Positions 1,083-46,720 of a stretch of 64,000 bases of DNA are shown here, piece after piece (position 1 is the stretch's first letter; the number at the start of each line of letters is the position of its first letter). Made by a program: the position numbers and the translations under genes. The DNA lies in the NCBI RefSeq assembly GCF_000332175.1, contig NZ_KB235910.1, forward strand, positions 435,278 to 499,277, in the 5' to 3' direction. Source of the DNA: Pseudanabaena sp. PCC 6802 (GTDB taxonomy: Bacteria > Cyanobacteriota > Cyanobacteriia > Pseudanabaenales > Pseudanabaenaceae). The notes beneath the pieces were generated by a model. It was not told where the DNA came from, searched no databases, and saw only the letters and a program-made list of their open reading frames with translations.

Positions 1083-1191
1083 TAGCGGTTTTCAGATGAA
1101 AACGAGAAGGGGGTTTGGGGGCGTTGCCCCCAAGAAGGGGTTCCACCCCTTCACCCCAAAAATAAAACCCGTTCTCAAGTGAAAACCGCTA
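1083..1191. mobile_element. MITE-like element, family A copy 1
   Basis: A non-coding element of about 109 bp with terminal inverted repeats TAGCGGTTTTCA and TGAAAACCGCTA, and an internal GGGGGCGTTGCCCCC hairpin followed by AAGGGGTTCCACCCCTT. It is followed by TA, but the left flank is TG where it abuts a family B copy. Together, copies 1 to 6 of this family occupy much of the non-coding space in the window. Confidence 0.75.
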
Positions 1192-4906: not shown

Positions 4907-5380
4907 AATTACGCTTTGACTTTCTCCTTTAAAAACCTTGTGAGATTTCCCAACAAACCCAACTGACTTTCCCCGAAGTAAAACCTGTTTGTGACAGGGA
5001 ATTTGCTTGCATCGCAGGTGTTTTTTTGCGCGAGCTATAGCGTTTTTCAGATCGGAAAGATTAGGGGGTTTGGGGGCGTTGCCCCCAAGAAGGGGTTCCA
5101 CCCCTTCACCCCAAAAATAAAACCTGTTCTCAATTGAAAAACGCTATAGGTATTAAAAGAAGTTCGTCACCTAAACCAATCACGATCGAATTAAAAGCTA
5201 TCTTTTGTACCTCAAAGGCTGAAACGTTTAGTTCGGTGGATATTTGACTTAAAGATTTCTGTCCATTGGCAGCTTGAAATAATTTCAACTCCAGAGGGTT
5301 TAATTTGACTAGCAAACCAGAACCTACCCCTGGGAGTTTATTATCAAGTACCTGACAAAATTGAGTCCAGCGATCGACTG
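4907..5380 (-). pseudogene. Decayed partial copy of the DUF4388 gene, interrupted by a MITE
   Basis: This stretch is a diverged duplicate of the 3' third of the intact DUF4388 gene at 6538-7401. Long identities include PLELKLFQAANGQKSLSQI and KIAF-IVIGL-DELLLIP on the protein level. Relative to the intact copy it has lost about 25 bp around the GNMDLPNLT segment and carries a one-base deletion near the 3' end. A family A element is inserted in it at 5038-5146. The N-terminal two thirds are missing, so no functional protein is expected. Confidence 0.8.
5038..5146. mobile_element. MITE-like element, family A copy 2, with TA target duplication
   Basis: 109 bp, starting TAGCGTTTTTCA and ending TGAAAAACGCTA, flanked by TA at 5036-5037 and 5147-5148. 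The intact paralogue reads GAGCTAGGTATT at about 6661-6672, with a single TA and no insert. The two copies therefore form a filled-site and empty-site pair. A TA duplication fits IS630/Tc1-mariner transposition; the mobilising transposase is not in the window. Confidence 0.85.
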
Positions 5381-5588: not shown

Positions 5589-6149
5589 CTACGAAGCCAT
5601 CGTATTGGCACCAGTAGCGATCAGCCGACGGAACAAGCCTGCCGTCCAGCCAGTTTCTTTCAAAACAGCCGCCGACGAAACTTCGATGTAGGCTTGCTCG
5701 ATAAATGCCAGGTCGATCATGCAAATTTTACTCAGAGACTCTCTGAGATCTTCAGGCTTGCCGCTACTCTTGAGTAGTTTCGTCACTTCCCGCACCACAG
5801 TTGCCATTGCTGGAACGACGTGTTCGGGACCAATGCCAATTTTGACGTGAACCAGACCGATGCGCCAGCGACGTTCGGCATAGCTTTTTCCCCAATCGTC
5901 CATGCCAGTAAACATCTCGTGAAACCATTGAACGAAGGTTTCGCGCAAACGGTGAATGCGTCCTTCCGTTTCTGTTAAGATTGCATTCATTTCCGGGTCT
6001 TTCTGTAGATAGCCATAAAAGCAATCAGCCATAGCAGGAGCGATTTCTTTGCCCCAATCAGCGTTAGCCTTTAGTAGAGATTTATCTTCGGCATTAAGCT
6101 CCGTCCTTCTCTCCAACGTTTGGAGAAACTGATGAGGATCTGAAACCAT
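5589..6149 (-). CDS. Protoglobin-type single-domain sensor globin
   Basis: 186 residues matching the protoglobin/globin-coupled-sensor globin domain, which binds heme and senses O2, NO or CO. The key segment is RIGLVHVKIGIGPEHVVPAM, where H101 is the expected proximal heme ligand. W and F residues at about 74-80 (FVQWFHEMF) fit the heme pocket. No methyl-accepting, kinase or GGDEF output domain is attached, so any signal must pass to a separate partner. AAGGA upstream of ATG supports the start. Downstream of the gene is the DUF4388 pseudogene, and upstream lies the DUF4388/GTPase/Roadblock/V4R cluster on the same strand. A role as its gas-sensing input is an inference from position. Confidence 0.85.
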   Translation of the reverse strand: MVSDPHQFLQTLERRTELNAEDKSLLKANADWGKEIAPAMADCFYGYLQKDPEMNAILTETEGRIHRLRETFVQWFHEMFTGMDDWGKSYAERRWRIGLVHVKIGIGPEHVVPAMATVVREVTKLLKSSGKPEDLRESLSKICMIDLAFIEQAYIEVSSAAVLKETGWTAGLFRRLIATGANTMAS

Positions 6150-6383
6150 ACTTTTTGCTTCCTTAACTGAAATATCTCTGATATTAAATGTTTATAGATA
6201 ATTTGTCAAAAAGACTCCACATCTTCAGTAATTCCAAATCCAAAATCTGACAGTCATGAAACTCTTACACCAAGAGAAGTTTATAACTTTTGATGTTTTG
6301 TCCGATCTCTGAAATGACCTAAAATCATTCCAAATTGGGAATTGCTACCACATCTTTACATTTACTGATTTTTTATGTTTTTT

Positions 6384-6452
6384 TAATTGAGAACAGGTTT
6401 TATTGACGGGGTGAAGGGGTTCCACCCCTTCTTGGGGGCAACGCCACCACGC
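6384..6452. repeat. Truncated family A repeat
   Basis: One end of a family A element (TTGAGAACAGGTTTTATTG, then GGGGTGAAGGGGTTCCACCC and TTGGGGGCAACGCC) without its outer inverted repeats. It lies in the 388-base gap between the globin and DUF4388 genes, in which nothing else was recognised besides possible promoter sequence upstream of the globin gene. Confidence 0.6.
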
Positions 6453-6537: not shown

Positions 6538-7401
6538 CTATGCTCTGACTTTATCCTTTAAAAACCTTGTGAGATTTCCCAACAAACCCGAACTGACTTT
6601 CCCTGAAGTAGAACCTGTTTGTGATGAGGAATTTGCTTGCATCGCAGGTGTTTTTTTGCGCGAGCTAGGTATTAAAAGAAGTTCGTCAACTAAACCAATC
6701 ACGATCAAACTAAAAGCTATCTTTTGCACCTCAAAGTCTGAAATGTTTAGTTCGATAGCTATTTGACTTAAAGATTTCTGTCCATTAGCAGCTTGAAATA
6801 ATTTCAACTCCAGAGGGGTTAAATTGGGTAAATCCATATTACCTGGTTTGACTAGCAAACCCGAACCTAACCCTGGGAGTTTATTAGTCAAGTGCGTCCA
6901 ATCTTCCAGCGATCGCAAACCGCTTAAGTTAATATCGCGCATTGTTACGTGCAGGCCAGTTAACTCTAAATGAGAAGGAAACACCTTATCGTTAAACGTA
7001 TAAATGCCCTCACGTAGGGCAAACAATTTGGTGATAGGATGAATTACTTGCAAATCAAACAGGAGCGCTACTTGTTGAGGTGTAAGTAAATTTTCCTCCC
7101 GGAGGTATCGCCCTAGTGGAACTGACAAAGTTTGCTTAGATTGCACCTTATGTAGTGCTGCGATTGTGGGAATTTCCAGTTCAAATGAATCTTTGATCAG
7201 ATCGATCAGACCTTGTTTTTGCGAGGCATTAGCTACGGCAACAATTCTCCCATTCTCAAACCAAATCTGACCATATCTTTTAAATGCTTGAGTCTCAGCC
7301 TGATAGCTGTTGATGATAAGCATTCCAGTCCTTTTGCCCTGGTCTAAAACCTTGAAAACCTCCGGCAAGGATAAATCTTCTATCTTTCCAATTAGTGCCA
7401 T
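6538..7401 (-). CDS. DUF4388 (PatA N-terminal-like) protein
   Basis: 287 residues. The N-terminus MALIGKIEDLSLPEVFKVLDQGKRTGMLII with FENGRIVAV is the DUF4388 fold, found at the N-terminus of PatA/PixG regulators and beside small GTPases. The central and C-terminal parts (about 100-240) contain the segment LTPLELKLFQAANGQKSLSQIAIEL, which resembles a winged-helix-like module. The tail is Ser-rich and ends in a basic helix (LTRFLKDKVRA). Unlike the PatA paralogue at 26533 it has no receiver domain. AAGGAG just upstream of ATG gives a firm start. It follows the GTPase gene by 104 bases on the same strand, which suggests one transcript. Its role is probably adaptor-like; this is inferred. Confidence 0.8.
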   Translation of the reverse strand: MALIGKIEDLSLPEVFKVLDQGKRTGMLIINSYQAETQAFKRYGQIWFENGRIVAVANASQKQGLIDLIKDSFELEIPTIAALHKVQSKQTLSVPLGRYLREENLLTPQQVALLFDLQVIHPITKLFALREGIYTFNDKVFPSHLELTGLHVTMRDINLSGLRSLEDWTHLTNKLPGLGSGLLVKPGNMDLPNLTPLELKLFQAANGQKSLSQIAIELNISDFEVQKIAFSLIVIGLVDELLLIPSSRKKTPAMQANSSSQTGSTSGKVSSGLLGNLTRFLKDKVRA

Positions 7402-8136: not shown

Positions 8137-8265
8137 TAGCGTTTTTCAATTGAGAACGGGTTGTGTTGACGGAATGAAGTGGGGAGCCCCCAAGACCGCC
8201 CTAACTCCCTTGTCTTGGGGGCAATATCTCCAAACCACTACTCTTTGCCGATGTGAAAACCGCTA
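8137..8265. mobile_element. MITE-like element, family A copy 4
   Basis: About 129 bp with ends TAGCGTTTTTCA and GTGAAAACCGCTA. The interior has diverged and carries CCCCCAAGACCGCC and CTTGTCTTGGGGGC segments. The right flank is TA, the left CA. It lies in the 283-base gap between the GTPase and Roadblock copy 1 and may affect their co-transcription. Apparent ORFs across it are artefacts of the repeat. Confidence 0.7.
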
Positions 8266-25530: not shown

Positions 25531-25629
25531 CTATAGCCAACAGGCTTAGGACGGGGTGCAGGGGTTACGCCCCTGCGTGGGGACTGTAACCCTACTACCC
25601 CCTGTACTAAAAGATTTGCACGCGGCTAT
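25531..25629. repeat. Dispersed repeat, family B copy 3, overlapping the rnhB end
   Basis: In reverse orientation to copy 1: CTATAGCCAACAGGCTTAGG, then ACGGGGTGCAGGGG, a hairpin centre, and CCCCCTGTACTAAAAGATTT up to GCGGCTAT. It resembles 46628-46720 read backwards. Its right end includes the rnhB stop codon and last codons. Confidence 0.7.
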
Positions 25630-26393: not shown

Positions 26394-26496
26394 TAGCGGT
26401 TTTCAGGTCTAAGTAGGGGGGTGGGGCGTTGCCCCTAACAAGGGGTGGAACCCCTTCACCCCAAAAATAAAACCCGCTCTCAGTTGAAAAGTGCTA
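26394..26496. mobile_element. MITE-like element, family A copy 5
   Basis: About 103 bp, TAGCGGTTTTCAGG to GTTGAAAAGTGCTA, flanked on both sides by TA (26392-26393 and 26497-26498). The interior has GGGGCGTTGCCCC and AAGGGGTGGAACCCCTT hairpins. It ends 36 bases before the first chemotaxis gene. Confidence 0.75.
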
Positions 26497-43839: not shown

Positions 43840-44072
43840 ACTTTTTGCTGCTAGATATCTTTAGCAATTATAACCCTGGCACCCTCAATTGAGGAAAATA
43901 GCAGACTTCATCAGGCCATTCCTGAAAGCCTTGCTACACAAGGCTTTGACTGTTTGCAATTAAGTCTAGTGGGTGCGATCGGAATTTTGTGTATCGAGCC
44001 TCTGAAACAGCGTAAATACGTACTTCAGGACTCAATTTACACAAAAATCTGAACACTCTCGTCTAGTGAATA

Positions 44073-44226
44073 TAGCGGTTTTCACTTGAGAACGGGTTTT
44101 ATTGACGGGGTGAAGGGGTTTCACACGGCAGTGGCTCTAGCGGGGAACCCCCAAAACCGCCCTGCCTCCCCTTTTTGGGGGCGTTGCCCCCACCCCCCCT
44201 GCTCACCTCCGATCTGAAAACCGCTA
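44073..44226. mobile_element. MITE-like element, family A copy 6
   Basis: About 154 bp, TAGCGGTTTTCACTTGAGAA to CTGAAAACCGCTA, flanked by TA at 44071-44072 and 44227-44228. It is longer than other copies because of a CGGCAGTGGCTCTAGCGGGG insertion in the centre. It lies in the 446-base gap 43840-44285, in which no gene was seen. Confidence 0.75.
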
Positions 44227-46627: not shown

Positions 46628-46720
46628 TATAGCCATAGACAGATCTGTTAAGACAGGGGGGGCTGCGCCCCCACGCAGGGGTGGAATCCCTGCACCCCGT
46701 CCTAAGCCTGTTGGCTATAG
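46628..46720. repeat. Dispersed repeat, family B copy 2
   Basis: TATAGCCATAGACAGATCTG to CCTAAGCCTGTTGGCTATAG. The middle has GGGGGGCTGCGCCCCC and CACGCAGGGGTGG. Nearly identical to copy 1, so it is a useful family reference. It lies between the ABC gene and psbJ. Confidence 0.7.

Follow-up and report, generated by a model that had tools for sequence, protein, structure and literature searches.

Among the mobile elements of cyanobacteria, a characterised representative of the IS630/Tc1 type is ISY100 (ISTcSa) from Synechocystis, which has 24-bp ends, duplicates its TA target and moves by cut and paste (PMC2170065). The MITEs of prokaryotes, cyanobacterial ones included, have been reviewed (PMC10969869). 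A different literature concerns the inversion of short spacers within inverted repeats. In yeast, such inversions arise by intermolecular template switching, were seen only where arms exceed 9 bp and spacers are short, and are reversible; loop inversions were described there for 10 coding genes (PMC8604942). Hairpin loop inversion in rRNA was reported for 69 rRNA clusters (PMC8794818). The repeat described here, referred to as family A, belongs to a familiar type of element, the IS630/Tc1-type MITE, but is new as a family. The explanation that best accounts for the data, and in which we place high confidence, is that family A is an IS630/Tc1-type MITE, likely moved by a matching IS630 element, and that its hairpin loops separately invert.

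The window analysed was a stretch of 64,000 nucleotides from Pseudanabaena sp. PCC 6802, hereafter the source genome. The closest hits that carried a name were Pseudanabaena plasmids. The family A copies and the corresponding empty sites within it are given below.

1083 to 1191, plus strand: family A MITE of 109 bp, flanked by TG (left, formerly TA) and TA, within the end of a family B repeat
5038 to 5146, plus strand: family A MITE of 109 bp that interrupts a decayed DUF4388 copy; TA at 5036-5037 and 5147-5148
About 6379 to 6450, minus strand: family A fragment, model positions 35-106
6608 to 6725, unstranded: paralogous empty site, where only one TA is present (6666-6667); it reads GCGAGCTAGGTATT
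8137 to 8265, minus strand: decayed family A copy of 129 bp, flanked by CA (left) and TA
26394 to 26496, plus strand: family A MITE of 103 bp, TA on both flanks
43913 to 43968, unstranded: empty site paralogous to the one that family A fills at L074 15561-15669; 89% identical over 56 bp
44073 to 44226, minus strand: family A MITE, long form of 154 bp, TA on both flanks

The element at positions 5038-5146 has the termini TAGCGTTTTTCAG...TTGAAAAACGCTA and inverted ends of 12 bp (TAGCGTTTTTCA). The coordinates 5036-5148, assigned to it in the first-pass annotation, correspond to the element plus both flanking TA dinucleotides. According to that annotation the 109-bp element sits exactly where the intact DUF4388 paralogue has one TA. 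Indeed, when its flanks are rejoined with one TA, they align with positions 6608-6725 over 118 bp without a gap and with 94% identity. The intact paralogue, an open reading frame of 287 aa, contains a DUF4388 domain (Pfam E = 8e-21). Between the two DUF4388 paralogues, at 5589-6149 on the minus strand and ~440 bp away from the inserted MITE, is a gene for a protoglobin (Pfam PF11563, 6e-23). A second pair of sites is formed by the filled copy at L074 15561-15669 and the empty sequence at 43913-43968 of the window. Note that the empty sites of family A are known from paralogues, within one genome. The copies at 26394-26496 and 44073-44226 are flanked by TA on either side, as had been claimed, and the two-ended copies at 1083-1191 and 8137-8265 are additional to those listed earlier. 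The 14-mer that forms the end of the element, with up to 2 mismatches allowed, occurs 11 times in the window versus 2.2 times expected. A search of Rfam revealed no known RNA family at the repeats, and one tRNA was the sole match in the window.

The suggestion that several copies in 64 kb signify a genome-wide family proved correct. A strict two-ended pattern gave 87 forward and 81 reverse matches throughout the genome and 0 matches for the reversed control. In a survey of 864 kb, comprising the window and 40 spaced stretches of the genome, 54 two-ended copies were observed, which extrapolates to ~350 for the genome. The TA dinucleotide is present on both sides of 50 of these 54 copies and is missing at one side only in the other four. 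Since TA accounts for only 5.6% of the dinucleotides in the surveyed 864 kb, the chance of this outcome is about 3e-120. Tabulation of the flanks for 93 distinct copies, from the sampled stretches and the searched loci, showed TA on both sides in 87, the other six deviating at one flank. The dominant size classes are 109 bp and 153 bp, with the 153-bp form carrying ~44 bp extra inside hairpin 2. Family A is short, present in many copies and devoid of a transposase gene, as is characteristic of MITEs, and both the flank counts and the filled and empty paralogues demonstrate insertion into TA with TA duplication. The small contig G000:C2 (108,934 bases) seems rich in family A, with seven strict copies, five of which lie within one 20-kb stretch.

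An IS630-type element with the same terminal repeats, for which the first-pass annotation had proposed a search, was found outside the window at G000:C5:1425188-1426209 (L026 1006-2027). It is 1022 bp in length, is bounded by a perfect terminal repeat of 25 bp (TATAGCGGTTTTCAGATGAGAACAG, the outer TA counted), and carries the TA duplication at both flanks. There are 16 DDE_3 transposase matches in the genome, one of which is bounded by family A ends. The terminal repeat of this candidate helper agrees with the left end of the MITE at 19 of 19 bp and with the right end at 22 of 25 bp; left ends of the GATC type agree with it at 20 of 26 positions only. The interiors of the two elements are unrelated. 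The first frame of the helper encodes an N-terminal HTH region of 140 aa (PF01710 and other HTH models), and the second a DDE_3 region of 238 aa (NCBIfam IS630 NF033545, 6e-36; Pfam PF13358, 4e-33). The two frames overlap at an A9 run. In the IS element of the relative G023, which is 66% identical to the helper, A9 occurs at exactly the same position, and thus recoding by slippage is likely. Judging from the sequence, the helper transposase would likely be produced from the two overlapping frames via slippage at A9. The helper may be inactive, however, given that one copy was found and that it is split into two frames. The other DDE_3 loci examined were rejected as helpers, there being no family A ends at their boundaries; an abundant multi-copy DDE_3 type terminates in an ATTGCC-type sequence. 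A contig search with the transposase as the query returned distant Rickettsia-associated matches only.

Related IS elements in the genomes G023 and G025 have the ends TATAGCGGTTTTCAAATGAGC, and a sister MITE of 105 bp in G026 and G030 carries 20 bases of TATAGCGGTTTTCAAATGAGC at one end. The outer 14 bp of these IS elements and of the 105-bp MITE are the same as those of family A. Because the IS elements and the MITE of the relatives share the variant end, transposase and ends change together. Of the sister MITE copies, 49 of 50 in G026 and 59 of 62 in G030 lie between two TA dinucleotides. No empty site of the sister MITE was observed between the two genomes in the stretches compared (50 and 62 copies), which argues that it has not been recently mobile. 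One locus of G026, L224 6799-7878, contains an IS630 element with one end joined to 79 bp of sister-MITE sequence, including the hairpin, and is possibly a MITE-IS recombinant.

On the basis of the matching ends, the transposase of G000:C5:1425188-1426209 most likely binds the ~25-bp ends of the short elements. It would then excise the MITEs and paste them into TA, duplicating the TA in the process. The earlier reading of family A as a non-autonomous element of the IS630/Tc1 type is supported by its structure, the TA duplication, the filled and empty sites, and the IS630 element with the same ends. It is distinctly unlikely that the matching IS is coincidental and that a different TA-duplicating transposase, for example of the IS5 group, or a different IS630 moves family A. 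Such a mover would fit the disparity between ~350 copies and one matching IS in two frames, as well as the deviation of some ends from the helper terminal repeat at 6 of 26 positions, and a now-lost element could have spread the copies. Among the DDE_3 loci examined, however, family A ends are found on the matching IS only, and ends and transposase covary in the relatives. The strong secondary structure (z = -7.2) and the intergenic location in the window might suggest a structural repeat, REP-like or terminator-like, that was dispersed without target duplication, but this reading is hardly credible inasmuch as it is contradicted by the terminal repeats common to the IS, the TA duplication, and the filled and empty sites.

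Family A folds into a terminal stem of 14 bp plus two hairpins, each with a stem of 8 bp and a loop of 3 nt (DNA fold z = -7.2). In the copy at 5038-5146 the loops are positioned as follows.

5078 to 5080, plus strand: loop of hairpin 1, GTT between TTGGGGGC and GCCCCCAA (element positions 41-43); AAC in other copies
5097 to 5099, plus strand: loop of hairpin 2, TCC between GAAGGGGT and ACCCCTTC (element positions 60-62); GGA in other copies

The stems hardly vary among 62 full-length copies, and the loops adopt the alternative forms GTT/AAC and TCC/GGA, TCT/AGA or TTC/GAA. Eight copies that are identical elsewhere display six loop combinations. Further subfamily markers occur at element positions 76-78.

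A related repeat, family B, is located at 989-1077, about 25536-25629, and 46630-46720 of the window, with 25 two-ended copies in the surveyed 864 kb. Its ends (TATAGCCRTAGACAGATCTG...CCTAAGCCTRTTGGCTATAGCTATA) are not those of family A, with which it has a two-hairpin core in common; its left flank is TA in 23 of the 25 copies, and its loops are likewise found in both orientations (TGC/GCA and TCC/GGA). The ~44-bp insert inside hairpin 2 (AGGCAGGGCRGTCTTGGGGGTTCCCCGCTAGAGCCACTGCCGTG) is nearly the same in the long forms of A and B (44073-44226, and L066 at about 4019, minus strand), and thus cores appear to have been swapped among elements with different ends.

The behavior of such loops could be followed at individual loci in G026 and G030. 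The core of the sister MITE, which is unrelated to that of family A, reads TTTTCATTTTGCC, then TAC or GTA, then GGCAAAATGAAAA; in its second hairpin the stem is 14 bp long and the loop 4 nt. When 45 orthologous copies were paired by both flanks, the loops were the same in 26, and in 17 the loop was replaced at the same locus by its exact reverse complement with the arms unchanged. The remaining two pairs show an inversion plus one base change. The two genomes differ by 0.52% in the MITE outside of the loop and by 0.71% in the flanks. A two-state correction yields ~0.9 inversions per hairpin, more than 100 times the per-base change. In the pair L234/L179 a stem mismatch was inverted along with the loop, which favors genuine inversion over repair copied from the opposite arm. 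Insertions of the sister MITE were not polymorphic in the compared stretches, and the loop flips are therefore not produced by transposition.

Aligned orthologous G026/G030 DNA, 365 kb in all and 0.68% different, was used to consider hairpins irrespective of the MITE. Among hairpins unrelated to the MITE, those that have 3-nt loops on stems of 11 bp or longer were inverted in 21 of 55 cases. Stems of 7-8 bp were never inverted at any loop length (0/182), and stems of 9-10 bp were inverted once in 34. For 4-nt loops with long stems the count is 2 of 39, versus 3-nt loops a Fisher p of 5e-5. Odd loop lengths were inverted in 45 of 128 cases versus 3 of 49 for even lengths, but because most of the even loops belong to one MITE hairpin, an odd/even effect is not claimed. 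Between Escherichia coli K-12 and REL606 (193 kb, 1.0% diverged) not one loop was inverted, but just two hairpins there combined a 3-nt loop with a stem of 11 bp or more. Perfect hairpins with a stem of at least 11 bp and a loop of 2-10 nt number ~30 per 100 kb in G026/G030 (L253-L292), 16 of them with a 3-nt loop; the corresponding densities are ~4 and 0.8 in the source genome and 6 and 1 in E. coli K-12. Since unrelated hairpins also flip, in a manner dependent upon stem and loop, the inversions reflect a mutational process governed by structure rather than any trait of the transposon. The hairpins that flip in the source genome have G+C-rich stems of 8 bp; stems of that length are unflipped in the relatives, so the source-genome flips assume more time or the higher G+C content of the stems. 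On balance, the perfect hairpins of this cyanobacterial family with a stem of ~10 bp or more and a 3-nt loop are probably continuously inverting sites, with flips ~100 times as frequent as substitutions and a sharp dependence on stem and loop length. If so, one MITE family provides ready-made replicate reporters for strand switching in nature.

Two other origins of the loop differences were weighed. Within one genome, loops can be inherited from different source elements, and the markers at 76-78 attest to subfamilies; the differences might then be old ones distributed by transposition or gene conversion. This is very improbable, however, as the same insertions in G026 and G030 have opposite loops in 19 of 45 cases while other positions differ by 0.52%, unrelated single hairpins flip as well, and flips of the 4-nt loops in those copies are very rare. 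It is also unlikely, if less so, that the opposite loops are artefacts introduced when the DNA was amplified or the genomes were assembled or polished. Of the two genomes, one exists as a draft of ~160 contigs, and polymerases are able to switch strands at hairpins in vitro. On the other hand, the loop lies ~21 bases from unique flank, inside the reach of short reads; other copy-specific differences are concordant between orthologues; 4-nt loops and short stems do not flip; and the separately assembled source genome also has both loops in otherwise identical copies. We thus favor inversion in place. The 3-nt loops would invert, separately from transposition, most likely when replication switches strand or template at the perfect inverted repeat. 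Template switching is the most likely cause by analogy with the yeast and rRNA cases (PMC8604942, PMC8794818), and cruciform cutting followed by rejoining may be an alternative.

With family A, a likely helper, a target rule and hundreds of copies are now linked in one genome. The loop inversions carry more weight than the MITE itself, which is an ordinary kind of element. They would mislead subfamily sorting or tree building from such repeats, and they allow strand switching at hairpins to be measured in nature with many replicates, the two hairpins of one element, with 3-nt and 4-nt loops and similar stems, serving as mutual controls. A comparable rate of loop inversion in bacterial genomes was not found in the open-access literature searched.

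The helper resembles ISY100 in its IS630/Tc1-type transposase, its length of ~1 kb, its terminal repeats of ~24 bp, and its insertion into TA with duplication (PMC2170065). ISY100 encodes one protein of 282 aa (PMC2170065), however, whereas the helper has two overlapping frames with A9 and different ends. Unlike those of ISY100, the ends of the helper are tied to a very large non-autonomous family. Family A is similar to Nezha, Chunjie and Correia in being short and non-coding, with terminal inverted repeats, target duplication, many copies and size classes (PMC10969869). It differs from them in its sequences and ends, its ~350 copies are at the high end of the quoted numbers (PMC10969869), and its core contains two flipping 3-nt hairpins. 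As in yeast and rRNA, a short loop flanked by perfect arms is exchanged for its exact reverse complement, and the change is recurrent and reversible (PMC8604942, PMC8794818). The limits noted in yeast, arms over 9 bp and short spacers, apply to the present loops as well (PMC8604942). In contrast to those cases, ~40% of the long-stem hairpins with 3-nt loops differ between genomes that are 0.7% diverged, and inversions of 3-nt loops far exceed those of 4-nt loops.
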